This document shows, piece by piece, positions 3,873 through 37,344 of a stretch of DNA of 38,802 bases. The first letter of the stretch is position 1. Every line of letters starts with the position of its first letter. The notes below the pieces were generated by a model, which was given only the letters and a program-made list of their open reading frames with translations, ran no database searches and was not told the origin of the DNA. The translations under genes were made by a program, and so were the position numbers. The DNA is taken from positions 1 through 38,802 of the forward strand of contig JAIKXO010000220.1 of NCBI GenBank assembly GCA_024684065.1, in the 5' to 3' direction. This DNA is from Lachnospiraceae bacterium. GTDB lineage: Bacteria; Bacillota_A; Clostridia; Lachnospirales; Lachnospiraceae.

Positions 3873-4691
3873 TTATTCATCTATCGATTCCTTAAATTTG
3901 AGTATTTCCCGTACCTTAACCATCATCCTTACAAACTGTTCCCGGTCTAACTGCTGTTTGCTGTCACTAAGCGCATCTTTGGGAGAAGGATGAACTTCTA
4001 TCTCCAATCCGTCACATCCGGCCATAACAGCGCTTAGCGACATAGGTTCTATAAGTTCCGCGCGGCCCGTCGCGTGCGAAGGATCGACGATCACCGGAAG
4101 ATGTGTCAGATTTTTCAAAGCCGCTACAGCGCTAAGATCCAGAGTATTCCTGGTATATGTCTCCATTGTGCGGATACCTCTCTCACAGAGGATGATTTTT
4201 TCGTTTCCGGCATTCATTATGTATTCAGCACAATTGAGCCACTCTTCTATAGTGGCATTCATCCCTCTTTTTAAGAGAACAGGCTTTCCGCATTTTCCCA
4301 CCTCTATAAGCAGAGAATAGTTCTGCATATTTCTGGCTCCGATCTGCAGAACATCGGCATACTCGCTTATAAGGAAGACATCCCTTGTATCTGTCACCTC
4401 TGTCACTATGGGAAGGCCGTATTCTTCGCCGGCTTTTTTAAGATACTGTAAGCCTACCCTCCCAAGCCCCTGGAAAGAATATGGCGAAGTTCTGGGTTTA
4501 TAGGCACCTCCTCTTAGCATGTTGGCACCGGCCTTCTTTACTATCTCGGCCGCCTTAAGCACCTGCTCCTCAGATTCTACGCTGCAGGGTCCTGCTATGA
4601 CCAGAAAATCCCTGCCTGCGGTTACTTCTCCTATCTTAAATTCGGTTCTTTTTCCATCCTCTTTGAGATCAACAAGCTTCAGGCCATACAT
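3873..4691 (-). CDS. aroF: DAHP synthase, type I-beta, catalytic domain only
   Basis: A 272-residue 3-deoxy-7-phosphoheptulonate synthase, which condenses phosphoenolpyruvate with erythrose 4-phosphate. Signature blocks are VIAGPCSVES (metal-ligand Cys36), RGGAYKPRTSPYSFQGLG, LLKRGM, the DPSHATGR histidine block, and IEVHPSPKDALSD with the remaining metal ligands. All expected catalytic residues appear present. Only about 28 residues precede the barrel, so the ferredoxin-like or chorismate-mutase regulatory domain of many type I-beta enzymes is absent; a feedback-insensitive enzyme is inferred. The start is the ATG at 4691, overlapping the stop of the carrier-protein gene by one base (TGATG), with GGGGG upstream. 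The coupling to a carrier protein and ligase, away from any other shikimate gene, is unusual. It may serve a dedicated decoration pathway rather than aromatic amino acids. Confidence 0.9.
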   Translation of the reverse strand: MYGLKLVDLKEDGKRTEFKIGEVTAGRDFLVIAGPCSVESEEQVLKAAEIVKKAGANMLRGGAYKPRTSPYSFQGLGRVGLQYLKKAGEEYGLPIVTEVTDTRDVFLISEYADVLQIGARNMQNYSLLIEVGKCGKPVLLKRGMNATIEEWLNCAEYIMNAGNEKIILCERGIRTMETYTRNTLDLSAVAALKNLTHLPVIVDPSHATGRAELIEPMSLSAVMAGCDGLEIEVHPSPKDALSDSKQQLDREQFVRMMVKVREILKFKESIDE

Positions 4692-4939
4692 CAGGATTCC
4701 CCCATCTTCTTTTCAATAAGCTCCGCAAGGCTTCCGATCACCTGAAAACGCGGGTCCGTAAGCTCGGCATCATCAAAGGAGATTCCAAATTCATCCTCGA
4801 GCTCCATTACAAAGCTTACCATTCCTACAGAATCTATATAACCGTTCTCCACATAATTAAAACTGTCTGTATCCACTCCTTCAGGCAGATCATATTCGTT
4901 TTGAATATGTTCCAAAATAAATTCTTTTATTCTGTCCAC
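4691..4939 (-). CDS. Acyl carrier protein (stand-alone)
   Basis: An 82-residue acidic carrier protein. The phosphopantetheine attachment site is GYIDSVGM with Ser37, followed by the typical helix-II stretch SFVMELEDEFGISFDDAEL. It resembles D-alanyl and other stand-alone carrier proteins more than fatty-acid ACP, because it has IDSVGMV rather than DSLDTVE. Translation starts at GTG (4939), fixed by a perfect AGGAGG eight bases upstream that lies inside the last codons of the AMP-ligase gene. The stop overlaps the DAHP-synthase start. The tight ligase-ACP order implies the ligase loads this protein with an acyl or aminoacyl group. What is loaded and where it is transferred cannot be read from the sequence. 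Confidence 0.88.
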   Translation of the reverse strand: MDRIKEFILEHIQNEYDLPEGVDTDSFNYVENGYIDSVGMVSFVMELEDEFGISFDDAELTDPRFQVIGSLAELIEKKMGES

Positions 4940-4942
4940 TTA

Positions 4943-6463
4943 TCAAACCTCCTGTGTTCTTACAAGTTCAAATATTCTGTTTCTGACAAGCTTTCCCATC
5001 GGATTTTTAGGGAGCTCATTAACAAAAAAAACATAATGGGGCTGTTGAAAATCCGCAAGATTCCGGGCGCAGTGTATCTTAATGTCTCTTTCAGTTATAT
5101 CGGTGTCCTTATCCTTAACCAGGGCTACAGCAACCACCTCTCCGAGTCTGTCATCCGGGTAGGAAAAGGCGGCGCATTCCTTTACCCCCCCGACTTTTGA
5201 TATTGATGACTCAACATCATACGGATATACATTTATTCCCCCCGTTATGATCAGCTCTTTTTTTCTCCCGCAGTAATATAAATACCCATCCTCATCGAGC
5301 CGTCCCAGGTCTCCGGTTTTAAAATATCCGTCTTTTGAAAAGGCCTTTTGTGTCATGTCTTTATTCTTATAATATCCGTTAAACATAAGAGTGCTCTTTA
5401 CGGCAATCTCTCCTTTTTCCCCGGTGGAAACAACGTTTTCGTCATCATTTATTATTATAATATCCGCCTCAGGTATCGAGCGTCCTACAGACTGCTGTTT
5501 GCTTTCCGCCTCTCTGAAATTGATACTGGTAACGGTTGAGGTCTCACTGGTACCATACATTTCATGAAAATCGCAGCTAAGCTTTTGAATAAGCTCAGTC
5601 CTTACATGAGGCTCGAGAAGTGCGGATGATGATACGATCGAGCGAAAACCGGTTATATCCGGAACAAAGGGGCTTGAAAGGAGCTGTGCCACCTGTCCGA
5701 GCTGTGCCGAAACAGCTATGGTAAAGGTGGCTTTGTTTTCGCTTGCGCATTTCAGCCATATATTGGGAGTGAATCTGGGGAGCAGGATAGACGCAGCGCC
5801 TGTCACAAGAGGGATCAGCACAAGCCTTTCGGCAAGGGAATGGTATAAAGGCGTAGCTGCAAGAACCCTGTCATTCTCTGTTATACCATAGAGTTTAACA
5901 TGGGCTTCTATTCTGTGAAGCTTATTATTCTGCGTCAGCTCTATAGGTTTCGGTACCCCCGTGGATCCGGAGGTCATTGTAAGTATCCATGTTTCATCCC
6001 CTGTAACAGCGCTCATATCCGGTTTATCGGCCGGCATTTTATAAACATCGTTAAGAGAATCCATTCCTTCCACGTTCCCATCCAGGCAAAGTCTTAAGCC
6101 TTCCCTGCAGGAAAGCTTTTCCGTATGCTTTTTAAAGAAGGAGCTTCTTGCTATGACATGCTTTACCTGTCCTGCTTCAAACGCGGCATCTATGGCATCA
6201 ACAGGGAGTGTGGGATTAATGGGAGCAAGGCCAGCTCCTATGGAGGCGCTGGCCAGCATAAGGGCCACGGATTCTATGCTGTTATTCATGGGAATACCTA
6301 TGATATCTCCTCTGTTAACCCCTTTTTTCCTAAGGTAATTTGAGTAACGGCAGACAAAAGAGGCCAGTTCGGAATAGGTCATTTCCTTTCCATCACACCA
6401 TATAGCCTGTTTATCGGGTTTTCTTTCAGCCTGTTTGAAAAATAACTCTGTTATGCTTCCCAT
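4943..6463 (-). CDS. AMP-dependent acyl-ACP ligase (ANL superfamily)
   Basis: A 506-residue adenylate-forming enzyme that activates a carboxylic acid with ATP and passes it to a thiol, here most likely the carrier protein encoded next. Motifs in order: TSGSTGVPK at 164-172 (phosphate loop), MYGTSETST around 302-310, TGD at 383-385, GRKKELIITGG from 399, and the C-terminal lysine K491 in NPMGKLVR. All core residues are intact and the length is normal for the family. The ATG at 6463 has AAGGA seven bases upstream. The substrate pocket cannot be assigned by eye; D-alanine (DltA type), hydroxy acids and aryl acids are all possible. The gene sits directly downstream of the legionaminate genes and is coupled to the ACP and DAHP-synthase genes. 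Confidence 0.87.
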   Translation of the reverse strand: MGSITELFFKQAERKPDKQAIWCDGKEMTYSELASFVCRYSNYLRKKGVNRGDIIGIPMNNSIESVALMLASASIGAGLAPINPTLPVDAIDAAFEAGQVKHVIARSSFFKKHTEKLSCREGLRLCLDGNVEGMDSLNDVYKMPADKPDMSAVTGDETWILTMTSGSTGVPKPIELTQNNKLHRIEAHVKLYGITENDRVLAATPLYHSLAERLVLIPLVTGAASILLPRFTPNIWLKCASENKATFTIAVSAQLGQVAQLLSSPFVPDITGFRSIVSSSALLEPHVRTELIQKLSCDFHEMYGTSETSTVTSINFREAESKQQSVGRSIPEADIIIINDDENVVSTGEKGEIAVKSTLMFNGYYKNKDMTQKAFSKDGYFKTGDLGRLDEDGYLYYCGRKKELIITGGINVYPYDVESSISKVGGVKECAAFSYPDDRLGEVVAVALVKDKDTDITERDIKIHCARNLADFQQPHYVFFVNELPKNPMGKLVRNRIFELVRTQEV

Positions 6464-6501
6464 AATATCATCCTTAAATGCATGTTTTACAGTAATACGA
6501 T

Positions 6502-7134
6502 CTAAATAGGCATCAGCCTTGCCGGGTTGCCAAAGGTTTTCATTTTTTCCGGAACATCTTTAACAACAACACTGCCAATGCCAAGATATGCATCATCTCC
6601 GACGGTAACATCCTGTGCTATTGCTACATTCGAACCGATAAAAACCCGCTTTCCGATCTTTACGTTCCTTAAGATACTGCACATCCCGCTGAGCGTGGAA
6701 TAATCATCGATGAAAACATCATGTCCGACCCCCGACGAGCATATCGTTACAAAATCTCCCACTTTGGAATTTACTGAAAGCTTTGCATGCGGGAACATTA
6801 TCAGTCCCTCGCCATAATGGCTGAATTTGGTTACAGTGGCGGTAGGATGTATGATCGGAGGAAAATATGCGCCTTTATCCTTTAACTCCTTAACTCTTTT
6901 TTCTTTATCGGCAGGAGTTGCTATTGCCATGGCAAAAACCTCTCCTTCTTTGGGGATCCAGTCACTGTTTCTCCCTACCACAGGATAATCGCACTCTACA
7001 CCCCAAAGAGCGTCAAGCTTATTGTCAAGAAAGCCTCCTATATCCCAGGTCGGTTTTACTTCATTTATATCTTTGATCCATTGAAGGAGTTCTCTTCCCA
7101 GACCACCGGCTCCTACTATATATATCTTATCCAT
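6502..7134 (-). CDS. NeuD/PglD-family sugar acetyltransferase
   Basis: A 210-residue acetyltransferase with an N-terminal Rossmann-like part (YIVGAGGLGREL) and a C-terminal left-handed beta-helix of hexapeptide repeats (for example the stretch VNSKVGDFVTICSSGVGHDV, and VGDDAYLGIGSVVVKDVP). The catalytic-type histidine is in SGVGHDVFIDD. Family members N-acetylate amino sugars (PglD, LegH) or O-acetylate sialic acids (NeuD). In this setting it most plausibly acetylates the 4-amino group of the legionaminate precursor (LegH role), but O-acetylation of the finished sugar is possible. I choose the ATG at 7134. A TTG at 7143 is an alternative, but it lies only three bases from the AAGGA motif, which suits neither start perfectly. 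It begins six bases after the legF stop. Confidence 0.83.
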   Translation of the reverse strand: MDKIYIVGAGGLGRELLQWIKDINEVKPTWDIGGFLDNKLDALWGVECDYPVVGRNSDWIPKEGEVFAMAIATPADKEKRVKELKDKGAYFPPIIHPTATVTKFSHYGEGLIMFPHAKLSVNSKVGDFVTICSSGVGHDVFIDDYSTLSGMCSILRNVKIGKRVFIGSNVAIAQDVTVGDDAYLGIGSVVVKDVPEKMKTFGNPARLMPI

Positions 7135-7139
7135 CGTAA

Positions 7140-7838
7140 TCAATAATCCTTTGAAAGTTTATATATGGCCTCTGCCACATCAAAATCGAACTGATCATCA
7201 ATATCCACGGATACCCTCTTATCCATTATAAAGGCATATGCCCTTTCTCTGAATATATTATGATGATCCTCAAGAAAATAGGGGATCCTCATGAGATAAA
7301 TGGCTCCGTTTATCCGATAATGCTTTGAGAAGTCCTGGCGGCGCTTTTCATTATCATCGGCATTTCCAAACGCGCTCATATCCCCGTCCTGTGGTAAAGT
7401 ATGGAACCAGGCAGGCGGATGGTCTGCTTCACAAACAGATATGACGGCATTAGCATTTTTCCCCCGAAACAGATCAAATGCCGCTTCGATATCTTTAGCG
7501 CTTCTTAACGGACTTGTAGGCTGAAGCACCGTGAGTGTTTCAAACTCACGGCCTTCTTCTTTATATCTTTCAAGCACTTCTGTCATTACATCCCAGGAAT
7601 CGGCTGTATCCGAAGACAGAGCCGGGCTTCTTAAAAAATGTACGTCAGCACCGTATTTTGCAGCTATCTCAGCATATTTTTCGGAATCAGTGGATACATG
7701 GACAACTTCGTATTTCCCTGAACCGATCGCCGCCTCTACGGAATATGCAAGAAGAGGTTTATTGCAAAACGGCTTTATATTTTTGTCTTTAAGGCCTTTT
7801 GATCCGCTTCTCGCCGGAATTATCGCTATATTTCCCAA
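7140..7838 (-). CDS. legF: CMP-legionaminic/N-acylneuraminate cytidylyltransferase
   Basis: A 232-residue nucleotidyltransferase of the NeuA/LegF/PseF family, activating a nonulosonic acid with CTP to give the CMP-sugar. The signature IPARSGSKGLKDKNI is at residues 6-20, followed by LQPTSPLR and the metal-binding VDIDDQFDFDVAEAI near the C-terminus. It starts with TTG at 7838, decided by GGAGG seven bases upstream; this site lies in the last codons of legG, which it overlaps by 13 bp. It is the single-domain form without the C-terminal phosphatase/hydrolase domain of some NeuA proteins. LegB, PtmE, LegG and LegI next door favour legionaminic over neuraminic or pseudaminic acid. Confidence 0.92.
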   Translation of the reverse strand: MGNIAIIPARSGSKGLKDKNIKPFCNKPLLAYSVEAAIGSGKYEVVHVSTDSEKYAEIAAKYGADVHFLRSPALSSDTADSWDVMTEVLERYKEEGREFETLTVLQPTSPLRSAKDIEAAFDLFRGKNANAVISVCEADHPPAWFHTLPQDGDMSAFGNADDNEKRRQDFSKHYRINGAIYLMRIPYFLEDHHNIFRERAYAFIMDKRVSVDIDDQFDFDVAEAIYKLSKDY

Positions 7839-9998: not shown

Positions 9999-10003
9999 AG
10001 CTT

Positions 10004-11056: not shown

Positions 11057-11058
11057 AA

Positions 11059-22021: not shown

Positions 22022-22076
22022 GTTTTACTCCGTTACCACCTGTTCGAATCCCTTCCCGTAATTACTGTCTAAGAAA

Positions 22077-24539
22077 TCATACATCAGATTCTTCCTGCTC
22101 CATTTTTTTCTCAAGATAAAACAGATCTATATCCTCAAGCTCTATCGCTTTCGCTGCCCAGGTTCCGTATTCCACATCTCTTGAAGATTTCATCTTAAGA
22201 TCCAGGTTATACACCGCCTGTATATAATCATCATTATCCAAAAAGGGAAACGCTAAAAGAAAAACCCGGTCAAAACTGGCCTGAGATTTATCTTCTCCAA
22301 GTATTTCAACACCTCCGGATAAATCAAGCCTTCCCCAATGTATTTTTGTTTTTCCTTCAGACATACTCGATAATGTAACAAGCTTATTATTTTGTTTATC
22401 GTATGAAAAGCCCTCCACAAAAGTTCCACGCATGGAAACAGTATTCGGATGAAATTTCATCTCAGGTATCAGCAGAAGAGTACTTTCATCATAATCTATA
22501 GTCGCCAGAATCTTTTCAATGAAATTACCGTATTCATATCCCTGTCTGTTAGTCTGTATTGCCGGCGATATATACAGATCTTCTATATTATTATTATCAA
22601 GATATACAAATTTCCCATTTCCGGAACTGTAAACATCCCTGCGGTACATGGTCGCAGGATCTATAACAGTAAACTGCTCCACAACAAATAAAACGCCCAA
22701 AGCAATAAAGAATCCATTCAATACTGTCTTATTTCTGATACGCACGCTTAATCCCGTCAACGACAGAAGCAATACTAAAACGCTGCCTGTCATAACATAT
22801 CTGTATTCATCATATGTATGAAAAATACAGTTAATGGCAGCATAAGAAACGATTGCTAAGAAAACAGGTATCAAGCTCTTTAAACGCCTGAAGAGCCTGA
22901 TGTCACAAATAACCAGCAATAATAGCAAAGGAATCCATAAGAAGTGGAAACTCAGCATTTCATTCAGCTTAGAAACTACATATGATTGACTGAAAAAGAA
23001 TCCATTAGTGACATCCCCTGAACGCACCTGCAAATTTCCTATGGAAAGGTTTTTATTATCTTCTCCCTCCTCATCATATATTTCTTCTTTACCTGACAGT
23101 TCTGTGTCATCACTATTATCCTTGGTATCTGTATCCGTCTCTTTGGCATATGTATTATTACCGGTATTATCAGCATACGCCTCTGGAACCGGCTGAGGGT
23201 CAGTGTTTACCGGTTCTGACATGTCCGGGCTTTCCGGCGGATCATTCTGTGCCTCCGCTATATGTCCATCTGTATTTATCTCCTCTGTAACAGCGGTGTC
23301 ATCCGTAATATTGATCTGTTCTTTTACAGAATCCTGTTCTTCCAAACTGCCCGGATCCGGAACATCAGTGTTTTCCATGATATATTCCTGTACATCAACA
23401 TCGTATTGTTCTTCCTCGTTATTATACATTTCATTATCCCCTATTTTCATCCCCCAAATGCTTGAAGATTGATAATTCCCCGTAACTATGCCCATAACTG
23501 TAGGGATGCTGAATATGACCAACCAAATGACAAACGGTAATGAAAAGAAGATGGTGCTGAGTATATAACCTTTCAGGTTATTATATCTTTTTCCAATGAG
23601 ATTCGTTATAAATATACCCAGTAAAAATCCTGCGTATAATACCGCGAGCGGTTCTTTTGTAAAGCAAAAGATAAGCGATGACAGAATGAATAAATACCAA
23701 TACTCATAATAGTAAAAAAATAACATGCCAATAAGTACAACTATTCCTATATAATCAAGGTTTGGCGACTGCATTCCGATAATCGGGACAAAGGAGAGAA
23801 AAACGACTGAAATGATAGTTACGTCGAGATTTGATATTGAGGGAATCAGCTTCCTGAACAAGAAAAAAGACAACGCCGCATCTGCCAATAAATATAATAA
23901 TATCCATAATCTTATACATAAGTACGGATCTGTAACATTAAATTGAATCGCAGGAAAAAGAATAGCATTTACACCATAGGATAAATGGCCACATAAAAGG
24001 TTAATGTTAGATACTGTAAAGTCAAAATATCTGGCATCCAGCAGGCTGTCTGTATAATATCCCTCATCCCATAGCGGTATCCATTTTAATGTTCCCAAAC
24101 TCATCAATAAGGTATACAAAACACAAACGACTACGCCCCAATTCTTTTTTATACCCTCTACTGCCCACTGACTGATATTTTCGCCTACACAATGATGTAC
24201 AAACTGTCTGCACCAGAAAAAAGACATCAGCAGCAACATAACGGCTTCTAATACAATAACAGCAAAATTATTTTTTTCAGTATATGGACTAATCAGTGCG
24301 ATCACAAACCATATCACAATTCCCACACTTACTATGACCGCCTGACAAATATGTGACCTGCCATATGTTGTACAGAATACGATATCGGCAATATATCTGG
24401 CAGACATTAAAACTAGTGATATGACCAGCATCCAGCGTGATGCATCTGCCATATTCACTCTTTGGGAAACTATGGAACAGAACAAAATCATATAGGCAAT
24501 GTACCCTAACGATTGCCCCGATTTTTTTAATATTTTCAT
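22077..24539 (-). CDS. GT-C-type membrane glycosyltransferase, tandem paralogue B with acidic insert
   Basis: An 820-residue paralogue of the next gene, with the same plan: about a dozen membrane segments, the loop motif IPLWDEGYYTDSLLDARYFD, CFTKEPLAVLY, and a soluble tail with IDPATMYRRDVYSSG. It differs by a hydrophilic, strongly acidic insert of about 145 residues (DNA about 23010-23444), rich in D, E, N, T, S and P, between SSIWGMKIG and YVVSKLNEM. The insert accounts for essentially the whole length difference from paralogue A. The ATG at 24539 has AGGA ten bases upstream; a TTG two codons earlier is less likely. A 157-bp gap precedes it, with a possible weak promoter. Confidence 0.75.
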   Translation of the reverse strand: MKILKKSGQSLGYIAYMILFCSIVSQRVNMADASRWMLVISLVLMSARYIADIVFCTTYGRSHICQAVIVSVGIVIWFVIALISPYTEKNNFAVIVLEAVMLLLMSFFWCRQFVHHCVGENISQWAVEGIKKNWGVVVCVLYTLLMSLGTLKWIPLWDEGYYTDSLLDARYFDFTVSNINLLCGHLSYGVNAILFPAIQFNVTDPYLCIRLWILLYLLADAALSFFLFRKLIPSISNLDVTIISVVFLSFVPIIGMQSPNLDYIGIVVLIGMLFFYYYEYWYLFILSSLIFCFTKEPLAVLYAGFLLGIFITNLIGKRYNNLKGYILSTIFFSLPFVIWLVIFSIPTVMGIVTGNYQSSSIWGMKIGDNEMYNNEEEQYDVDVQEYIMENTDVPDPGSLEEQDSVKEQINITDDTAVTEEINTDGHIAEAQNDPPESPDMSEPVNTDPQPVPEAYADNTGNNTYAKETDTDTKDNSDDTELSGKEEIYDEEGEDNKNLSIGNLQVRSGDVTNGFFFSQSYVVSKLNEMLSFHFLWIPLLLLLVICDIRLFRRLKSLIPVFLAIVSYAAINCIFHTYDEYRYVMTGSVLVLLLSLTGLSVRIRNKTVLNGFFIALGVLFVVEQFTVIDPATMYRRDVYSSGNGKFVYLDNNNIEDLYISPAIQTNRQGYEYGNFIEKILATIDYDESTLLLIPEMKFHPNTVSMRGTFVEGFSYDKQNNKLVTLSSMSEGKTKIHWGRLDLSGGVEILGEDKSQASFDRVFLLAFPFLDNDDYIQAVYNLDLKMKSSRDVEYGTWAAKAIELEDIDLFYLEKKMEQEESDV

Positions 24540-24616
24540 AACCAAATATTCCTGCTTTTTATTAAGTCTGTCATATGACCTGCATCTGCCATATCTACGG
24601 CTCTGATCATCCGATC

Positions 24617-24702: not shown

Positions 24703-26283
24703 TTATCGGACTATTCTGTCATTTTTCAAAATAACGAATACTTCATCCCGGTACAGTACTGAATGTCCCGTGTCAATATTCAGATTCAGGATATCATTAA
24801 CATTTTCTTCTTCTGAATTTATCAATACATATCCTGCTTCAGTATTTGCCTCCCCACTGATCATAAAATTCGTTCCCGTACCATCCGGTAACGCCAGTTG
24901 CCAGTATGGGCCGAGGAATCCATAAGTCGCTACCGTATTGTTCCATCTGTCATTGTCCTCTGATATATCCATTATTTCGGTAAGCATCTCTTTTTCCTGC
25001 AATATCGCCTCGGTATAGGCAGAAACCTCAACGCGTTCATAGATCAGACCGCTATGGTATTTCTTTATTCCTACAATAGCAATAACAAACAGCAAAACAC
25101 CAAGTTTACGAAGATCTGTGAAACTTCCTCCTTTCGGCTTTAAGACCGACATCAGCAAGAAGGTACAAATCAAACCTGTATTGCTACCCCTGCACAGGGT
25201 CCAGCCGCTGCCTGTATAGAGAATACAATATCCGAAAAGAAACCCGGCGAGAATATATACAAAAATGTAATCCCTTTCACTTCTTGTGAGTATAAGGTTA
25301 TAGACAGACACGAACATAATGATCAAATATACTATAAAGTACCAGAAAAGGGTATGGTCATTAGCCTGAAGAACGGAAGGAAGATCCACTGTTTCAAGGT
25401 TTTCGAATGTGTTATCTACAACATATACTACCATTGAATACAAACCGTTTTCCTTAAGCTCATTTACATAGCTTGCTATTGTAGACTCCGTATATGGAGA
25501 AGAAACTAACGAAACGATCTTATTTTCAATAAAAGCGATCAGCAATGTACTCACTAAAGATATAATAATTCTGATATGAAAAGGCTTTCTTTTCAATAAG
25601 GCATTACAAAACAAAGGGATAAATAATGCCAGAATAACATATACATTTATTGCAAATATAGTAAACAGGAAAAAGCATAATATCATAAATAAATGCTTCT
25701 TCCCGTAATTTTCCTGTTCTTCTACTTTTCTATATAAATAAACAGTAATACCTGTTAATACTATAGCCAATGAATAGCGTAATCCTTCACACATAGATGT
25801 CATAGAATATCCGATAGTGATGAACGATATACAATACATAATGATCATCCAGATCATTTCCCGTCTGTCCGGTTGAGTCAGTATACAAAACAAAAAAAGT
25901 GATATCGCTAAAAAAGACAGATTTGCCAACGCCATAGAGTATAAATGCCAACCGAATAATGTACCAAACACTGCATATGGTAAAAGCGGAGAGATCCCCC
26001 ATGGACCAAATGTTCCAAATTGAGCATGTGTCCCGTTATAGCCATAATATCCCAGGGGTCTGCCATATGTTATAACAGCCTGCACCTGATTATGCCACCC
26101 TACTTCATCGTTCCACACCGGAATAAGAATCTTCAGATCAAATCTCTGTCCATTTATTAAAAGCAATAAGAAAGCCACGGAAAAAGGCACCAGCAGAATA
26201 AGTAAATACCATAAATTAAATCCATGTAATAATCTGCTTTTTCTGTCTTTAATATTTGTATATAAATTCAATAACGAGTTCAT
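24703..26283 (-). CDS. GT-C-type membrane glycosyltransferase
   Basis: A 526-residue polytopic membrane protein with roughly eleven hydrophobic segments. The first extracytoplasmic loop has LIPVWNDEVGWHNQVQA, placing an acidic N-D-E at the position typical of GT-C catalytic bases, followed by an aromatic- and glycine-rich stretch (YGYNGTHAQFGTFGPWG). A soluble tail of about 90 residues ends the protein. The frame opens at a TTG (26328) overlapping the upstream gene, but the ATG at 26283 gives a better N-terminus although AAAAGG is 13 bases away, so the start is uncertain. It is the second of two GT-C genes after the ArnC-like gene, so it may use that enzyme's lipid-linked sugar. Confidence 0.7.
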   Translation of the reverse strand: MNSLLNLYTNIKDRKSRLLHGFNLWYLLILLVPFSVAFLLLLINGQRFDLKILIPVWNDEVGWHNQVQAVITYGRPLGYYGYNGTHAQFGTFGPWGISPLLPYAVFGTLFGWHLYSMALANLSFLAISLFLFCILTQPDRREMIWMIIMYCISFITIGYSMTSMCEGLRYSLAIVLTGITVYLYRKVEEQENYGKKHLFMILCFFLFTIFAINVYVILALFIPLFCNALLKRKPFHIRIIISLVSTLLIAFIENKIVSLVSSPYTESTIASYVNELKENGLYSMVVYVVDNTFENLETVDLPSVLQANDHTLFWYFIVYLIIMFVSVYNLILTRSERDYIFVYILAGFLFGYCILYTGSGWTLCRGSNTGLICTFLLMSVLKPKGGSFTDLRKLGVLLFVIAIVGIKKYHSGLIYERVEVSAYTEAILQEKEMLTEIMDISEDNDRWNNTVATYGFLGPYWQLALPDGTGTNFMISGEANTEAGYVLINSEEENVNDILNLNIDTGHSVLYRDEVFVILKNDRIVR

Positions 26284-26315
26284 AATCAGAACATTACCTT
26301 TTAAAACATTTAATT

Positions 26316-27545
26316 CTATATGCTCCAAGGGATTTCAACACCTTGAGCCACATTAACAAAATATACTATTCCACTTATCAGATGCCAGAAAAGTACAAAA
26401 ATACCTATCAGATAGTAAACGTCTTTAGATGCGGATTTAGATTCGTTTCTCTTATAGGTATATTGAAGCATATTTTGAAAAAAATAAGGAACTGCATATA
26501 TGAATACTATATAAAGCCCCGCTGGAATACCCCATCCAAAATTCCCGTGATATTCTCTTGAACCAGTTTCTTTAAAAACACTATAAATTACAACTGAAAC
26601 AAAAAACAACCAAAGAGAATATCCCAGATTCGGATCAACAGGCCTATTATCCCTTTTGGATACAATCAAATCAGCTATCCAAACATACAAAGGGAAAAAA
26701 AAACTTCTGGCAAACTTGAGGAGCATATGACCTATGCTTCCCTCCCATAACAAGTTCGAAAAAAAAACTATTGCTATCCCTGATTCTTCGCTCCCTCCGC
26801 CACTCTTATATATCAATATATATTGAACTGCAAGTACGATCATTGATAGAACAACTGTCAGCCCCATAATAAAAGTACTTTTCAAACATACCATATTTCT
26901 ATGCTTCAATAATCCTGCCAATAATACTGTTGCCAGTGAAATGCATACCGTCAGGAGAAAGTTTGGCTTAAACATGGTGGCAACAGCAAGTGACAGCGCC
27001 ATTGTCCACCAGCTTTTTGTTTTTATCCCGTCTAAATACGTTGGATACGTTCCATAAAAAAAATAGAGATAGACAACTGCAAACAGTCTCATCCCAAAAT
27101 ATGTTGAATTATGCCAAGGTTGGGATCCTAAGGAAAAAGCATAGAAATATGGATAAATAACAGGTATATATAGGGCCGTCACGAAGATCAGACCAGTCGA
27201 AATAAAAAGAGCGATCCATTTTGTCAGAGTAAAATATCGTTCTATCAGCTTTAATGATATCAACCATGTAAGCATTACCAGAAATGATTCCGCAACTGCA
27301 AAAATCAGTTGCAGCAAGGGAAATGATGTCAAAAGACCTAAAAAAAATATAAATATAGTTTCTAATCCATACCCATCCAACAATATGCCGGCATCAATAT
27401 GCAAAGGAGTATCACTTACATATAATCCATCCGGATGAATTGCCATACCAAAAAAGACAGCTGTCATTAAAGCTGTAATGATTATCGCTATGACCAGTCT
27501 GACTTTTTCATAATAAGCAATGCTTTTTAACAGTTCTTTTTTCAT
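26316..27545 (-). CDS. Polytopic membrane protein, probable GT-C glycosyltransferase
   Basis: A 409-residue protein with about ten membrane segments and no large soluble domain. Near residue 45 an extracytoplasmic loop carries YVSDTPLHIDAG, resembling GT-C active-site loops, and further on SLGSQPWHNSTYFGMRL and FKPNFLL. The frame starts at a TTG (27587) that lacks a ribosome site, so I choose the ATG at 27545 (MKKELLKSIAYYEKVRL), which still has only a modest GAG/AGG upstream. It follows the ArnC-like gene by 77 bp. A role as an acceptor-side transferase for the lipid-linked amino sugar is inferred from context; a polymerase-like role cannot be excluded. Confidence 0.62.
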   Translation of the reverse strand: MKKELLKSIAYYEKVRLVIAIIITALMTAVFFGMAIHPDGLYVSDTPLHIDAGILLDGYGLETIFIFFLGLLTSFPLLQLIFAVAESFLVMLTWLISLKLIERYFTLTKWIALFISTGLIFVTALYIPVIYPYFYAFSLGSQPWHNSTYFGMRLFAVVYLYFFYGTYPTYLDGIKTKSWWTMALSLAVATMFKPNFLLTVCISLATVLLAGLLKHRNMVCLKSTFIMGLTVVLSMIVLAVQYILIYKSGGGSEESGIAIVFFSNLLWEGSIGHMLLKFARSFFFPLYVWIADLIVSKRDNRPVDPNLGYSLWLFFVSVVIYSVFKETGSREYHGNFGWGIPAGLYIVFIYAVPYFFQNMLQYTYKRNESKSASKDVYYLIGIFVLFWHLISGIVYFVNVAQGVEIPWSI

Positions 27546-27622
27546 TTTCTCAAAAAACCTGTGATAAAAGGATACCGGAACAAACAAATCAATAGCATTC
27601 TGATCGATCCCGGAACATGGAG

Positions 27623-28567
27623 CTATTTATTGTCCGATAGAACTGTATCGCCATACTCTTCCCGAATAACATATTGCGGAGCATTGTTCAGACTAATATA
27701 TATACGTCCTATATATTCTCCGACCAATCCAATCATAATCAGTAAAAATCCATCCAGCAACAAGGTCAGCGCAATAACAGAGCTCCAACCTTCAAGATAT
27801 TGAAATCCGCAAATTCTTTTTATTATTATGACAATTGCATACAGCATTCCTATCAGTGCTATAACAACACCCGATAACGAAGCTATTTCCAAGGGTTTGA
27901 CAGAAAAAGCCGTAAACCCGTTCATCCACAGCCTGATCAGTTTTCTTAAAGTATAATTTGATCTGCCGGCGAGCCTCTCCCTGTGTTCGATCTCAACATC
28001 GCATAAATTCGATGTGGTTCGAAACGCCAGACCTCCGACATATGGATACGGTTTATCATATCTGATCATTTCATCAATGACGAACCTTCTGTAAGCTGCA
28101 AAACTCATAGGGTGAAGATCCTTCGGCATGTCTATCAGTGAAATGCACATTCTGCGATTTATTTCACTTCCGACAGAACGCCATTTGGCTTTTTTTTCAA
28201 CGGGATATCTGGCATAAACAGTGTCATATCCTTCATCTATCTTTCCAAGCAGCGTAAAAATTCCCTTTGGATCGGCCTGTCCGTCATCATCCATCTGGAT
28301 TATGACATCGCCCTTAGAAGCTCTGTATCCGGCCATCAAAGCAGAATGCTGCCCGAAATTCCTTGAAAATCTTATACCTTTTACTTTTCCGGGGTACTTA
28401 TCGGCCAGCCTTTTTATAGCATCCCACAACTCAGAGGTTGATCCGTCATTCACCAATATTATCTCATATAAAAGTCTGTCCTCGATCGTTGAGACTATCT
28501 CGTCCACAACCGGTTCTATAGTCTTATCTGAATTGAAGCAAGGTATCACAACAGAAATATTCCACAT
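27623..28567 (-). CDS. Polyprenyl-phosphate glycosyltransferase, ArnC/GtrB-like
   Basis: A 314-residue GT2 enzyme of the DPMS/ArnC/GtrB group, which moves a sugar from its nucleotide onto undecaprenyl phosphate at the inner membrane face. Visible are SVVIPCFNSDKTIEPVV, LVNDGSTSE, RFSRNFGQHSALMAGYRASK (very like ArnC) and the metal motif QMDDDGQADP with Asp93-95. Two C-terminal membrane helices and LVGEYIGRIYISLN, a hallmark of this group, follow. The ATG at 28567 has AAGGA seven bases upstream. Neighbours (DegT aminotransferase, ATP-grasp, SMR pair, GT-C) point to an amino-sugar substrate such as a 4-amino-4,6-dideoxy sugar. Confidence 0.88.
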   Translation of the reverse strand: MWNISVVIPCFNSDKTIEPVVDEIVSTIEDRLLYEIILVNDGSTSELWDAIKRLADKYPGKVKGIRFSRNFGQHSALMAGYRASKGDVIIQMDDDGQADPKGIFTLLGKIDEGYDTVYARYPVEKKAKWRSVGSEINRRMCISLIDMPKDLHPMSFAAYRRFVIDEMIRYDKPYPYVGGLAFRTTSNLCDVEIEHRERLAGRSNYTLRKLIRLWMNGFTAFSVKPLEIASLSGVVIALIGMLYAIVIIIKRICGFQYLEGWSSVIALTLLLDGFLLIMIGLVGEYIGRIYISLNNAPQYVIREEYGDTVLSDNK

Positions 28568-28609
28568 GTTCGTTTCCTTTTTTTTTAACTAAACTATCAT
28601 TATTCAGAT

Positions 28610-29785
28610 TCATTCAAATTCGATCCGGGCAAGTTCATCGAATCTGTTCAGTATATCCATCATCTTCCCATAGGAATCAAATTTCATTATCAGGATCCCT
28701 GCTTTGTATTTTAACGGATCATCCACGACCGTTCCCTTATTATCACGCATGTACTCGTATATTATAAACGGTTTCAATTCATCATCTATAAAGATATCCT
28801 TAATTATGCCCTTTCGGGAGGTCATGATGCACTCCCGTGCAACATAATTATGTTCCACCGCATAACTGTCATCCGGCTTCTCCCCGCACTCCGACCTGAC
28901 GATCTGCGCAGGATAATCGACCCCTGTCGTATATTTCGCAAGCAGCACATAAAGATCCCCCGGCATCCTTCTGCACGGGTCTATCATGACCGGATAGCCG
29001 CTTTCATCCAGAATAAACTGGGTATGAAAAAGACCGTCAGCCAGTTTACAGTGCCCTGCTATCTTTTCTATGTCATTAATGAGCGAAAATTCGGCATGCT
29101 GAGGGATATCCGAAGGGGAACACGCCCCACGAACAAGATATTTGTTTATTCCGTACTGCTCATTATCGATCATATACCAGACAATCTTATCATTCTTTAA
29201 AAGCGCTGTAATGCCATGATACGATCCGGTAATGAACTGTTCTAAAATAACATATTCCTCTCTTGTCATTTTCATGGCCTGACGGAATGCTTCTATCGCT
29301 TCGTTTTGTTCATGACAGACCCTGACGCCCTTGCCGCCGGTCAGGTCAACCGGCTTCACAAGCAGGGGAACCCCGACTTCATCAAATGCTTTTTTCACAC
29401 CGGCCTCATCCCGGCATTTTCTTATCAGTGGGGTTTTTATACCGATTCTTTCAGTCATTTCCCGGAATCTGTCCTTTATATGGATCAGTTTTGCCGTTTC
29501 ATATGAATCGTGGCCGGGAAGCCCAAGCCTTTCACAGGCGTAGGCTGTTGAAATATAGGCAAAATCATTGGCACCGGAAACAATGCCCTCTACGCCTTCC
29601 GTTTCTGCAAGGCTTAAGACCCATTCCCTGTCTGAAAAGTCACCTTTTACATATTTATCTGCCGTCAAATGGCCTATGGAGCCCTCATCATTCCCTGTTG
29701 AAACAACATACCAGCCAAGAGCCTTAGCAGCCTGAATAACCGGATATTCTGAATGGCTGCCACCTGTTATCAGTAATTTTTTCAT
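28610..29785 (-). CDS. ATP-grasp carboxylate-amine ligase-like enzyme
   Basis: A 391-residue ATP-grasp protein. The N-terminal Rossmann-like part begins KKLLITGGSHSEYPVIQAA. The ATP-binding core has LLVKPVDLTGGKGVRV (Lys144 and the glycine loop at 150-154) and EYVILEQFITGSYHGI. The metal-binding part reads FHTQFILDESGYPVMIDPCR. Such enzymes join a carboxylate to an amine or similar nucleophile through an acyl phosphate. Its position between an oxidoreductase and an ArnC-like transferase, in a unit headed by a sugar aminotransferase, suggests ligation of an amino acid or other acid to the sugar amine. That substrate assignment is inference. The ATG at 29785 has AGGA ten bases upstream and follows the oxidoreductase by 12 bp. 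Confidence 0.82.
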   Translation of the reverse strand: MKKLLITGGSHSEYPVIQAAKALGWYVVSTGNDEGSIGHLTADKYVKGDFSDREWVLSLAETEGVEGIVSGANDFAYISTAYACERLGLPGHDSYETAKLIHIKDRFREMTERIGIKTPLIRKCRDEAGVKKAFDEVGVPLLVKPVDLTGGKGVRVCHEQNEAIEAFRQAMKMTREEYVILEQFITGSYHGITALLKNDKIVWYMIDNEQYGINKYLVRGACSPSDIPQHAEFSLINDIEKIAGHCKLADGLFHTQFILDESGYPVMIDPCRRMPGDLYVLLAKYTTGVDYPAQIVRSECGEKPDDSYAVEHNYVARECIMTSRKGIIKDIFIDDELKPFIIYEYMRDNKGTVVDDPLKYKAGILIMKFDSYGKMMDILNRFDELARIEFE

Positions 29786-29797
29786 GTGTCCTAAATC

Positions 29798-30979
29798 CTA
29801 TAATTCCACTGCTTCTCCTAATTCGGATGATTTGTACGCGGCATATATTATTTTTATGCTGTCATATGCAAGATCAAATCCCGATTTCGGTTCCCTGTCA
29901 TAGTATATGGAATCCATAAAATCCCTCATCTCATCAGTATATCCTCTGATTATCTCATCCTCCAGAAAGGGATTGTTCCATCCGGTTTTTGACGGAAGCA
30001 TCTCTGATAAATATATATCATTCATATTATCCTCATCCAGGAAATATGTACTCATGAGATTTGACATGGTAAGATTACAGTTGATCACCGCATCGTTACA
30101 GTACAGCTCAATATAGTTTTTACTGCCACCCAGAAGTACATCCGTTGCAATGACCGTTGCTTTGCTGCCATCCGTAAAGGTTACGATAACCGTGCCGTTG
30201 TCTTCGACATCATGCGGTCTTGCGGCGATATGCCTGTGATCATACTCGTTTAACGACGGAGTTATCCTGCCCATATCCGCGAATATCGATCTTACCTTAA
30301 TGGTTTCCCCACGTGCTTTTGCTTCTATTCTTTTAAGCCAGAGCAGGGCACATAGAGGATGGGCTCCGGTCCTTATAAACGTTCCTCCTCCCGTCCTGCA
30401 CCACTCCCCTGCTACCGGAGAACTTGACCCCTTCAGGCTCTCCTCTCCCTTTGCATAAAGGATCTTGCTCTTCTTTTTTGAAATGATCTCGGCTGCCTTA
30501 CTTACCGCAGGCGCATAGACGAAATTCTCGGCATACATGAATTTCTTCCCGCTGCTCTTTACTATTTCTCCCAGCGCATCAATTTCCTTTAGAAGCTCTT
30601 CATACATGATGCTTTTTGATACTTTATCCCCTATGGGCTCCGGATCTCCCTCTTTTCCAAAATATCCGCTTAATGGCTTCTCACAGATCACATGCTTTCC
30701 TGCCTTCAGGGCCTTTATTATCATATCCTTATGAGCATAGGGAGGCGTACAGACATCTATCACATCGATCTCTTTATCCTTCAACAGATCCTCAAAATCC
30801 AGGGATGCATTTACAAAACCGTACCGCTCCTTCATCGCATTAACCTGCTCTGCACGACGGGCGATAATATGTTTAAAGCATACGGGAACCCCGGTATATC
30901 TGATAAGAGCATTCATATGAAGCTCTGTCGCCCTTCCCGCGCCTGCCATCCCCAGGCATATTTCACCTTTACCGTTCAT
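29798..30979 (-). CDS. Gfo/Idh/MocA-family oxidoreductase
   Basis: A 393-residue NAD(P)-dependent sugar or small-molecule oxidoreductase. The Rossmann loop is GMAGAGRATELH near residue 10-21. The family block GKHVICEKPL places the conserved EKP at 100-102. The C-terminal alpha/beta domain has GGTFIRTGAHPLCALLW, with a histidine where the family's catalytic base lies. Members oxidise or reduce hydroxyl groups on sugars, inositols and nucleotide sugars. In this unit it could act on a sugar nucleotide, or make the acid used by the ATP-grasp enzyme. The ATG at 30979 has GGGGG seven bases upstream. Confidence 0.85.
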   Translation of the reverse strand: MNGKGEICLGMAGAGRATELHMNALIRYTGVPVCFKHIIARRAEQVNAMKERYGFVNASLDFEDLLKDKEIDVIDVCTPPYAHKDMIIKALKAGKHVICEKPLSGYFGKEGDPEPIGDKVSKSIMYEELLKEIDALGEIVKSSGKKFMYAENFVYAPAVSKAAEIISKKKSKILYAKGEESLKGSSSPVAGEWCRTGGGTFIRTGAHPLCALLWLKRIEAKARGETIKVRSIFADMGRITPSLNEYDHRHIAARPHDVEDNGTVIVTFTDGSKATVIATDVLLGGSKNYIELYCNDAVINCNLTMSNLMSTYFLDEDNMNDIYLSEMLPSKTGWNNPFLEDEIIRGYTDEMRDFMDSIYYDREPKSGFDLAYDSIKIIYAAYKSSELGEAVEL

Positions 30980-31000
30980 GATCTGTCCCCCAAAAACAGT

Positions 31001-31354
31001 CTATCCGAAAAGCGAATAAACTATTATTCCCGTAATGATAAGTCCCAGTGCCATAAACTTCTTAGTTCCGATCTTTTCATGAAATATCTTTACGCCAAAA
31101 TATGAAACATATATATAACTGGTCGTTTCAAGTACAGGCCCCATAGAAAGCGGAATGCCCCTGTAGGCGATCACTGAAATAAAGGTGGCAGCGGCAAAAA
31201 CAGTATACGCCGATACCACCAGAGGATTAAGATATTCCTTTATCGGAGAATCATATTTCTTTTCCGAGGCTTTCTTCAGCATAACCTGCGATAACGAACT
31301 GATAAAGACGCCAAAGAGCAGGATCAGGGCATAAACGATCTTAAAATCTCTCAT
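31001..31354 (-). CDS. SMR/EamA-type four-helix membrane protein, flippase subunit candidate
   Basis: A 117-residue protein with four predicted membrane helices, of the small multidrug resistance/half-EamA size class. Features are SSLSQVMLKKAS in helix I, GIPLSMGPVLETTSYIYVSY in helix III, and FHEKIGTKKFMALGLIITG leading into helix IV. ArnE and ArnF, which form the undecaprenyl-phosphate-aminoarabinose flippase, belong to this class. Its start overlaps the stop of a second such gene (ATGA), and GGAG lies six bases upstream of the ATG at 31354. The paired arrangement next to an ArnC-like enzyme suggests a heterodimeric flippase. Confidence 0.8.
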   Translation of the reverse strand: MRDFKIVYALILLFGVFISSLSQVMLKKASEKKYDSPIKEYLNPLVVSAYTVFAAATFISVIAYRGIPLSMGPVLETTSYIYVSYFGVKIFHEKIGTKKFMALGLIITGIIVYSLFG

Positions 31355-31719
31355 GCTTCACTCTCCCCGCCGTTTGCCTGCGAATACAGTACGACGCCGA
31401 TCATTACGATAATAATCCCCACAATTTTCCCCACGCTTATGGCTTCATCAAAAAAAACAATTCCCCATATCATGCCCCACGCAACAGTCACTGCCTTGTT
31501 TGAAAACGCCGTAGTGAGCGGCAGTTTTTTTAGCACCTGCTGCCAGCCTATTGCATAAAAACCCAACAGTAAGAACAGCATTCCGTAATACATGAAAAAC
31601 TCCCGGCTTAAGAACCCGGCCTGAGCCGCCTTCTTGCTGCAGATACCGCCTAAGGAATATATCATTAACAGCAGATGCAGGGCGATAAACACTTTCACTC
31701 TTTCACTTATAATTTTCAT
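31351..31719 (-). CDS. SMR/EamA-type four-helix membrane protein, second flippase subunit candidate
   Basis: A 122-residue, four-helix membrane protein of the same size class as its downstream partner. Features are LLLMIYSLGGICSKKAA, QQVLKKLPLTTAFSNKAVTV, where the P-L-T-T-A-F-S block resembles SMR helix III, and FFDEAISVGKIVGIIIVMIG. I use the ATG at 31719; a TTG at 31728 is also open. No ribosome site is visible before either, so expression may depend on coupling to the aminotransferase gene 27 bp upstream. Together the two genes look like an ArnE/ArnF-type pair. Dimerisation and substrate are inferred. Confidence 0.78.
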   Translation of the reverse strand: MKIISERVKVFIALHLLLMIYSLGGICSKKAAQAGFLSREFFMYYGMLFLLLGFYAIGWQQVLKKLPLTTAFSNKAVTVAWGMIWGIVFFDEAISVGKIVGIIIVMIGVVLYSQANGGESEA

Positions 31720-31746
31720 ACATATCAAACAGCATCATAATTATCA

Positions 31747-32889
31747 TTATTTACGCATGGATCGATCGTAAAATTCCCTTATGCATTCAGCTACCATATC
31801 GACAGCTTCATTACCCATGCCATAATACATCGGAAGCCTTATGAGTCTTTCACTTTCTTTTGTAGTATACTTATCTTCTCCGGCAAATCTTCCATACAGC
31901 CTTCCTGCAGGAGCGGAATGAAGGGGAATGTAATGAAACACCGCCCCTATCTCCCTCGTCTTAAGATAGTCAAGCAGCTTTGTCCTTTCCTCTAAATCCT
32001 TCACTTTAATATAGAACATATGAGCATTATGGATACATTCCTTCGGTATATAAGGAAGCGTTATCCTCCCCTCATCCATAAGAGGCTTTAAACGTTCATA
32101 GTACCTGTTAAAGCTGTTCATCCTGTCATTATAGATTTCCTGAGCCTTATTCATCTGCGCGTAAAGAAAAGCGGCATTAAGCTCGCTCGGAAGATAAGAC
32201 GAACCCGCAGCCACCCAGGTATACTTGTCTATCTCACCCCGGAAAAACTTGCTCCGATTGGTACCTTTTTCGCGGATTATCTCTGCTCTCTCTATATCTG
32301 CCGGATCACGCATCAAAAGCGCGCCACCCTCTCCCATGGAGATATTTTTGGTCTCATGAAAACTATAACACCCGAAATCACCGATCGTTCCCAGTGCCCG
32401 TCCTTTATACGAACTCATGATACCCTGTGCGGCATCCTCGACCACCCTGAGCCTATATCTGTGAGCGATATCCATGATAGTATCCATCTCACAGGCTACA
32501 CCGGCATAATGCACGGGTACGATAGCTTTTGTCCTTGATGTTACGGCATTCTCTATCAATGTTTCGTCAATATTCATGGTATCAGGTCTGATATCAACAA
32601 ATACCGCCGTAGCACCTCGCAGGACAAAGGCATCGGCAGTTGAAACAAATGTATAGGAGGGCATGATAACCTCATCGCCTGGTTTGATATCGATAAGAAG
32701 CGCCGCCATTTCCGTAGCATGAGTGCAGGATGTGGTCAGCAGGGCCTTTGATATTCCTGTATATCTCTCTATCCATTCGCTGCAGAGCCTTGTATATTTA
32801 CCGTCTCCGCTGATCTTATGCAATTTCAGCACATCCGCTATATTTTCAGCCTCTCCTCCGACAACCGGAGGGATATTAAATGGGATCAT
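31747..32889 (-). CDS. wecE: dTDP-4-amino-4,6-dideoxygalactose transaminase (WecE/RffA)
   Basis: A 380-residue PLP enzyme of the DegT/DnrJ/EryC1 family. It is very close to WecE (RffA) along its whole length: MIPFNIPPVVGGE, TTSCTHATEMAALL, MPSYTFVSTADAFVLRG, VPVHYAGVACEMDTIM, FHETKNISMGEGG with the PLP lysine Lys181, and AVFHYIPLHSAPAG. WecE converts dTDP-4-keto-6-deoxyglucose to dTDP-Fuc4N using glutamate. The one visible difference is a residue missing after the PLP lysine (GEGG versus GGEGG as I recall WecE). The ATG at 32889 has GGAG seven bases upstream. It heads the minus-strand unit after a good promoter. RmlA/RmlB, needed for its substrate, are not in the window. Confidence 0.93.
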   Translation of the reverse strand: MIPFNIPPVVGGEAENIADVLKLHKISGDGKYTRLCSEWIERYTGISKALLTTSCTHATEMAALLIDIKPGDEVIMPSYTFVSTADAFVLRGATAVFVDIRPDTMNIDETLIENAVTSRTKAIVPVHYAGVACEMDTIMDIAHRYRLRVVEDAAQGIMSSYKGRALGTIGDFGCYSFHETKNISMGEGGALLMRDPADIERAEIIREKGTNRSKFFRGEIDKYTWVAAGSSYLPSELNAAFLYAQMNKAQEIYNDRMNSFNRYYERLKPLMDEGRITLPYIPKECIHNAHMFYIKVKDLEERTKLLDYLKTREIGAVFHYIPLHSAPAGRLYGRFAGEDKYTTKESERLIRLPMYYGMGNEAVDMVAECIREFYDRSMRK

Positions 32890-37321: not shown

Positions 37322-37344
37322 CGGAAAAGAGTTTATAATTTCCG
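37322..37344. terminator. Possible weak terminator between convergent genes
   Basis: An inverted repeat CGGAAA (37322-37327) and TTTCCG (37339-37344) with an 11-base loop lies between the convergent genes and overlaps the end of the YfhO gene. On the minus strand it is followed by TTTATTCT, a poor U-tract. The six-pair stem is short, so termination here is only a possibility. Confidence 0.22.

Follow-up and report, generated by a model that had tools for sequence, protein, structure and literature searches.

A minus-strand block of eight co-directional, tightly packed genes is located between positions 24703 and 32889 of contig JAIKXO010000220.1 from a Lachnospiraceae bacterium (assembly GCA_024684065.1; the whole stretch of 38,802 nucleotides is referred to as the window), and it raises the question of what these genes jointly make. 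A first-pass annotation, prepared from the sequence alone, had read the block as an Arn-like pathway for the decoration of a glycan with an amino sugar. Its eight genes were recovered on the same strand and with the same boundaries, and code for a WecE-type transaminase, an overlapping pair of SMR-size proteins, a Gfo/Idh oxidoreductase, an ATP-grasp ligase, an ArnC-like GT2 and two proteins with multiple transmembrane (TM) segments. The present analysis suggests, at roughly even odds, that the block is an Arn-like cassette placing N-acylated 4-amino-4,6-dideoxygalactose (Fuc4N) on a surface glycan, the acyl group being a quinate-type acid provided by the Gfo/Idh oxidoreductase and attached by the ATP-grasp ligase. 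The supply of this acid is the point that the first-pass annotation did not address. The parts of the proposal differ in strength: an Arn-like architecture with a dedicated acid supply is highly probable and the amide ligation of a carboxylate to the amino sugar is likely, whereas the quinate-type nature of the acid is an evenly balanced inference.

Components of the block and their conservation

The transaminase (31747..32889) exceeded the curated cut-offs of the models for dTDP-Fuc4N transaminases (TIGR02379, 625 bits with a cut-off of 435; NF008687, 623 bits with a cut-off of 375), so that its earlier assignment to the WecE type stands; the best PDB matches were 4piw/4zah and 6blg. The two SMR-size proteins (31351..31728 and 31001..31354, overlapping by 4 bp) presumably form a glycolipid flippase, with sub-threshold EamA matches of 24 and 25 bits, respectively. 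According to PMC9574504, lipid-type SMR flippases have no glutamate in the centre of their first TM segment. The inspected alignment of the pair revealed no acidic residue in this segment in either subunit at nine of nine loci, which agrees with a paired flippase of the lipid type. For the topology of the two subunits, whose opposite orientation would mark such a flippase, the K/R difference was +1 and +2, hence not opposite, in a crude hydropathy segmentation whose TM segments were unusable.

The ATP-grasp protein (28610..29785) matched several ATP-grasp Pfam models, and no NCBIfam equivalog reached its cut-off among the matches listed (25 of 30). Structure prediction, proposed earlier as a check of its pocket, gave an AlphaFold2 model (pLDDT 94.2) with the carboxylate-amine ligase fold of the L-amino acid ligases BacD/YwfE/BL00235 and of PurT, to which it is about 14–21% identical. 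The enzyme would join an acid to the amine of Fuc4N. The GT2 (27623..28567), presumably a polyprenyl-phosphate glycosyltransferase, resembled ArnC (NF007986, 169 bits, cut-off 529) and PgfS (NF047588, 155 bits, cut-off 500) without reaching either equivalog.

The last two genes, which overlap by 13 bp, encode a presumed glycosyltransferase of 423 aa (26316..27587), with no Pfam or NCBIfam match, and a protein of 541 aa (24703..26328), with no Pfam match, whose predicted structure has a GT-C fold with ArnT as the first Foldseek hit. The previous description of both as GT-C-type proteins is supported, by its fold, for the 541-aa one, but neither belongs to the conserved core: in a tblastn comparison with loci L001–L030 the 423-aa protein had no match and the 541-aa protein a single one (24%, in L005). 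Other loci carry different multi-TM or YfhO genes, a YfhO-family protein being present in L006, L007 and L035.

The recurrence of the gene set was followed with an alignment of 31 ATP-grasp sequences, the window included. With one genome per species, 13 close and 2 remote loci were found. At 1e-80, matches were present in 12 of 397 genomes, 3 of these 12 previously known, of a Lachnospiraceae-labelled family with G006 at its centre, and in 1 of 245 genomes of a Treponema-labelled family, this one being the seed itself; these whole-genome tallies, and those for Gfo below, include the already known seed genomes. The module is patchy across genomes, as surface-glycan genes would be. In total 28 ATP-grasp loci were counted, comprising the window, 23 loci from the ATP-grasp search and 4 (L090–L093) from the Gfo search. 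Gfo was found at 21 of them, GT2 at 14, WecE at 13, an FkbM-like methyltransferase at 13 and each SMR gene at 9 (16, 13, 12, 13 and 8, respectively, among the 23 loci of the ATP-grasp search alone). The SMR genes were always accompanied by GT2 (9 of 28 loci; 8 of 23), and the window has no FkbM-like gene. Loci L014 and L015 (ATP-grasp identity of 25–27%) were below the score limit and outside the count, L022 (3 kb contig, 46%) was excluded together with the short duplicates L016–L030, and L041–L065, L082–L088, L096–L101 and L108 were excluded as shorter copies of loci examined at length; the exceptions among them, L056 (G281), L061 (a second G066 copy) and L065 (a fourth G322 copy), entered no count. 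One genome contributed both L013 and L040, and another L033 and L039.

L001 had six genes of the set on their own (Gfo, ATP-grasp, GT2, WecE, SMR, SMR), between spoIIP and lepA. In L007 the order was YfhO, WecE, ATP-grasp, Gfo, GT2, SMR, SMR, RmlA, RmlB, the YfhO-type protein being a GT-C. The co-occurrence elsewhere that the earlier annotation had named as decisive was thus observed, including self-contained copies. As gene order differs between loci while the content stays constant, and stand-alone copies exist, it can be argued that the genes form one pathway; the core as a conserved, sparsely distributed cassette is well supported, and in gut and rumen bacteria the set appears mobile. The hosts extend beyond the Gram-positives to which the system had been assigned, with L002 and L003 labelled Treponema and L013 labelled Selenomonadaceae.

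The lepA and hemW-like genes adjoin cassette genes in L001, L031 and L067 (lepA was model-checked only in L001), perhaps marking a preferred insertion site. In L037 (5250–8022) a glycyl-radical-like enzyme and an activase-like radical SAM gene, named by reading only, lie directly upstream of the module. Diverged ATP-grasp relatives accompanied, also by reading, by an aldehyde dehydrogenase (L039, L040) or by a TRAP-type transporter and an SDR (L036) possibly use other acids.

The Gfo/Idh oxidoreductase and the proposed supply of the acid

The oxidoreductase of the window (29798..30979; PF01408, 71 bits) would be a cyclitol-carboxylate dehydrogenase of the quinate type, judged by conserved residues, neighbours and tree. 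Searches at thresholds of 1e-100 to 1e-90 gave Gfo matches in 16 of 397, 10 of 392, 5 of 291 and 1 of 145 genomes (overlapping sets, seeds included, the last match being the seed itself). With the ATP-grasp loci added, there were 46 Gfo loci, the window included, of which 45 were used in the alignment and the tree (L013, with a broken reading frame, was omitted). Inositol 2-dehydrogenase and levoglucosan dehydrogenase were among the best NCBIfam/PDB relatives, and the lysine of the EKP motif (K101) and the histidine (H207) known from these enzymes were kept in all 45 rows. The protein nevertheless scored far under their equivalog cut-offs, and position 203 was Arg in 45 of 45 sequences where the aligned DgpA segment has the Asp of the GGGxxxDxGxH motif. 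Such an invariant arginine would suit a carboxylate substrate.

In the maximum-likelihood tree of the 45 sequences all 24 glycan-linked ones, together with L067, formed one group (support 96/92). The remaining 20, from 12 genomes, fell outside it and are referred to as the outgroup. The genomes with the nearest relatives of the window enzyme were found as members of one family together with others labelled Lachnospiraceae.

The neighbours of Gfo connect it with the early shikimate pathway. A gene for 3-deoxy-D-arabino-heptulosonate 7-phosphate (DAHP) synthase was located at most 2 kb from Gfo at 9 of 43 loci (34 genomes), compared with 0.11 expected from the 46 PF00793 copies of these genomes; this expectation takes into account the size of the genomes and the numbers of copies and loci, and treats genes as uniformly placed. 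The background of one to three PF00793 copies in 37 of 38 genomes was not part of this calculation. Loci L094 and L095 (G964, G686) were included in the neighbour survey and the tree, outside the DAHP synthase counts and expectation and the searches for dehydroquinate synthase and dehydroquinase. Seven of the nine genomes with a Gfo-linked DAHP synthase had a further copy. The nine linked enzymes represent two PF00793 subfamilies, the AroFGH type with four members (58–60% to the L002 enzyme) and the B. subtilis type with five (66–73% to the window enzyme).

The window enzyme (3873..4691, minus strand) exceeded the curated cut-off for DAHP synthase (TIGR01361, 386 bits, cut-off 268), and the five linked copies close to it are those of L005, L066, L089, L092 and L093. 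It matched positions 75–333 of the 338-position model NF006421. Since the enzymes of the window, L005 and L066 align only from position 67–75 of this model, they lack the N-terminal stretch, which in such DAHP synthases carries feedback control; the frames in L092 and L093 were longer.

In L005 Gfo forms an uninterrupted same-strand row with the genes for dehydroquinate synthase, DAHP synthase and an AMP-ligase, and the opposite strand carries an AroE-like gene at a distance of 1.9 kb. Dehydroquinate synthase was present in all nine genomes with a DAHP synthase-linked Gfo, and in G005 its only copy was the one beside Gfo. Among the outgroup, Gfo adjoined a type I dehydroquinase in L071 and L076 and an AroE-like gene in L107, with an AroE-like gene 5.4 kb away in L103. 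No DAHP synthase match was found in 8 of the 10 outgroup genomes searched; of nine of these genomes, eight lacked dehydroquinate synthase and seven had type I dehydroquinase (1–4 copies). As these genomes mostly have dehydroquinase without the two preceding enzymes, the outgroup dehydroquinase probably serves the uptake and breakdown of quinate-like compounds.

Genes of ThDP (thiamine diphosphate)-dependent, TIM-barrel, aldehyde-dehydrogenase and HMG-CoA-lyase-like proteins and of a TRAP-type transporter were noted near Gfo in L103 and L107. The gene runs in L103 (1386–8846), L105 and L107 are like those for inositol breakdown, and their genomes had no match for DAHP synthase; in L103 and L107 their members can be compared with IolG, IolE, IolD and IolA. 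A cyclitol acid may be degraded by the runs of L103 and L107 in the manner of inositol, and those of all three loci are a possible anaerobic route for quinate or shikimate.

Two activation systems were found with Gfo. The window carries, besides the ATP-grasp gene, minus-strand genes for an acyl carrier protein (ACP; 4691..4939; PF00550, 25 bits), an AMP-forming acyl ligase (4943..6463; PF00501, 224 bits) and a NeuD/PglD-family acyltransferase (6502..7143; TIGR03570, 160.9 bits, cut-off 160.8). The AMP-ligase matched near-Gfo copies in L005, L066, L068, L069 and L089 at 43–64%, ACP relatives were found near Gfo in L066, L068, L069 and L089, and the acyltransferase was 61–62% identical to near-Gfo copies in L066 and L069. 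ATP-grasp was present at 21 of 46 Gfo loci; the window has both systems and L005 has ATP-grasp with an AMP-ligase, while L066, L068, L069 and L089 combine Gfo, AMP-ligase and ACP and have no ATP-grasp match in the stretch examined. This replacement of one system by the other suggests that both activate an acid made with Gfo. In the tree, DAHP synthase and both activation systems were scattered within the glycan-linked group. As L089 also has NeuB-, NeuC- and PseF-like genes, the legionaminic set of the window may be where its second amino sugar belongs. The earlier suggestion that the oxidoreductase supplies or modifies a substrate can be narrowed accordingly, as the DAHP synthase linkage, the neighbours and the tree indicate that it most likely makes the acid.

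The block is not isolated, and the minus-strand gene run extends to base 162, with glycosyltransferases, an ABC transporter, the acid-related genes at 3873–7143, a legionaminic-type set and a WbuX amidotransferase. The legionaminic-type set (6502–12039) comprises LegB (513 bits, cut-off 475), a PtmE-like CBS and nucleotidyltransferase protein, NeuB, NeuC, a PseF-like protein (below cut-off) and NeuD; no LegC-type transaminase at cut-off was found among the window proteins scanned. The N-acetyl sugar amidotransferase of the WbuX type (162–1307; 368 bits, cut-off 203) points to an acetamidino sugar. Two tandem multi-TM proteins of 722 and 822 aa (19853–24545), paralogous by eye and without Pfam match, the longer one with an acid-rich insert, and the C-terminal half of a YfhO-family membrane protein (37333–38802, truncated by the window edge) were also observed.

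Alternative origins of the acyl group

Several observations weigh against a quinate-type acid. The DAHP synthase of the window, although on the same strand, is 25 kb from Gfo, and none was found in the stretch examined at L004, L006, L007, L008, L009, L011 and L012. In L031 and L032 a different Gfo/Idh protein takes the place of the cassette one. The linkage of AroB with the cassette was seen only once, and dehydroquinase and shikimate dehydrogenase are linked to the outgroup relatives (46–55% identity) and not to the clade of the window, save for AroE in L005. Even in the outgroup, 16 of 20 rows had neither a dehydroquinase nor an AroE-like gene in the stretch examined. Type I dehydroquinase was absent from two of nine outgroup and two of three glycan-clade genomes, type II forms of dehydroquinase and DAHP synthase not having been searched, and the genomes for the dehydroquinate synthase and dehydroquinase searches were chosen after the DAHP synthase result. 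The TIM-barrel neighbour matched QuiC with 24 bits only (cut-off 1200), and several of the genomes are metagenome-assembled, of uncertain completeness. Finally, a KdsA-like gene (L035) and a KpsF-like gene (L033, named by reading only) near ATP-grasp would suit a 3-deoxy-sugar acid.

The latter genes lead to the best surviving alternative, an open-chain 3-deoxy-aldonic acid, in which DAHP (C7) or a compound of the 3-deoxy-D-manno-octulosonate type (KDO, C8) would lose its phosphate, Gfo/Idh would reduce it at C2, FkbM would in many cases O-methylate it and ATP-grasp would ligate it to the amine. The DAHP synthase linkage fits it equally well, and the FkbM-like genes of 13 of the 28 ATP-grasp loci (not the window) would find a role. 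In the Treponema-labelled loci L002 and L003 the ATP-grasp, FkbM and Gfo genes lie in a row, followed by DAHP synthase in L002 (the L003 contig ends after the row). The flagellin glycan of Treponema denticola reportedly is an N-(2-methoxy-4,5,6-trihydroxyhexanoyl) nonulosonate, a structure that would fit such an acid. In PMC9481697 this glycan, of 450.2 Da, is termed novel. A phosphatase would be needed, however, and a HAD motif, covering this one family of phosphatases, was found in none of 190 open reading frames of ten DAHP synthase loci, the window included; other phosphatase families were not looked for. This acid, the first explanation after the neighbour survey, was lowered because the AroB, AroD and AroE linkages appeared: it leaves unexplained the AroB gene beside Gfo in L005 and the dehydroquinase and AroE genes near Gfo relatives. 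It is regarded as unlikely.

Slightly less likely still is an ordinary amino acid or small acid as the group attached by the ATP-grasp enzyme, Gfo/Idh acting on a nucleotide sugar, for example as a 3-dehydrogenase, with the DAHP synthase linkage being incidental. L-amino acid ligases are indeed among the closest folds, and the oxidoreductase matches the model of the UDP-GlcNAc 3-dehydrogenase, at 33 bits (cut-off 450). Yet the nine DAHP synthases near Gfo compared with 0.11 expected would stay unexplained, for which reason this explanation is not favoured and kept only as a rival; moreover, Gfo accompanies AMP-ligase and ACP with no WecE match in the stretch examined (L066, L068, L069, L089), and its family also occurs in runs with carboxylate-type transporters. 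Of the amino acid or other acid that the first-pass annotation had left as options, the latter is therefore retained, more likely a cyclitol acid derived from the shikimate pathway than an amino acid.

More doubtful again is the view that the genes belong to no single pathway and lie side by side only because they share a variable polysaccharide island, with WecE, GT2 and ATP-grasp acting on different sugars. The window forms a large island that includes many glycosyltransferases and a legionaminic set, and 15 of the 28 ATP-grasp loci have no close WecE and 19 no SMR pair in the stretch examined, but copies among housekeeping-type genes in L001, L004, L007 and L011 (SpoIIP and LepA apart, the flanks were named by reading) and the same content in varied gene order argue against it. 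A catabolic role of the window block was rejected because WecE, GT2 and GT-C accompany it.

Proposed pathway and its relation to known systems

With the quinate-type acid preferred, the computed gene content, conservation, folds, repeated linkage and tree lead us to infer the reactions, which acid is used and whether acylation or lipid loading comes first. WecE would make dTDP-Fuc4N. Gfo/Idh would make a quinate-type polyhydroxy-cyclohexane carboxylic acid, fed by the dedicated DAHP synthase and a dehydroquinate synthase usually encoded elsewhere in the genome (within the locus in L005). The ATP-grasp ligase would activate the carboxylate as an acyl phosphate and join it to the 4-amino group of Fuc4N. 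The ArnC-like GT2 would then load the sugar onto undecaprenyl phosphate, the SMR pair would flip it, and a GT-C enzyme, varying by locus, would transfer it to the acceptor. A second amino sugar, perhaps a precursor of legionaminic acid, probably receives this acid through the AMP-ligase, ACP and NeuD/PglD-like acyltransferase of the window.

The likeness to the Arn (L-Ara4N) pathway includes a DegT-family transaminase for a 4-aminosugar, an ArnC-like GT2, an SMR pair and a GT-C with ArnT as the first fold hit. The cassette differs in using dTDP-Fuc4N instead of UDP-L-Ara4N and in an amine which apparently stays acylated with a large hydroxy acid. The transaminase did not reach the ArnB equivalog (NF008658, 205 bits, cut-off 631) and reached the WecE model instead, and the SMR pair was below ArnE (29 and 30 bits, cut-off 92) and ArnF (25 bits, cut-off 99), which leaves the claim that the pair works like ArnE/ArnF unaffected. 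No formyltransferase or polysaccharide-deacetylase Pfam match, as would mark ArnA or ArnD, was found in the 28 minus-strand window proteins, LegB scoring 60 bits with the ArnA model (cut-off 777).

The same architecture is known from three-component extracytoplasmic glycosylation, with a polyprenyl-phosphate GT2, a flippase and a GT-C, e.g., CsbB/GtcA/YfhO (PMC7389260 and PMC11127046). In the cassette, the flippase candidate is an SMR pair and not a GtrA/GtcA protein, and a dedicated acid pathway apparently acylates the sugar beforehand, while it is still cytoplasmic. The Fuc4NAc branch of the enterobacterial common antigen (WecE, WecD) shares the WecE-type transaminase, but the WecD acetyltransferase is replaced by ATP-grasp, or elsewhere by AMP-ligase, ACP and acyltransferase. 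A limited literature search, covering few subscription journals and partial texts, revealed no link of quinate, ATP-grasp and an amino-sugar glycan and no description of a Gfo/Idh quinate dehydrogenase.

In a broader and more tentative form, to which somewhat less than an even chance is given, bacteria of several phyla may divert the early shikimate pathway, by means of an extra DAHP synthase and a Gfo/Idh cyclitol-carboxylate dehydrogenase, to cap surface amino sugars with a quinate-type acid via two interchangeable activation systems and Arn-like lipid export. The six-gene cassette is small enough for reconstitution in vitro, and the proposal provides a testable function for a Gfo/Idh family found in inositol-breakdown-like gene runs. 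If it is true, amino sugars would gain a new class of N-acyl group, an Arn-like lipid route would be reused with a bulky hydroxylated cap, and the identity of surface glycans in rumen and gut bacteria would be tied to primary aromatic metabolism.

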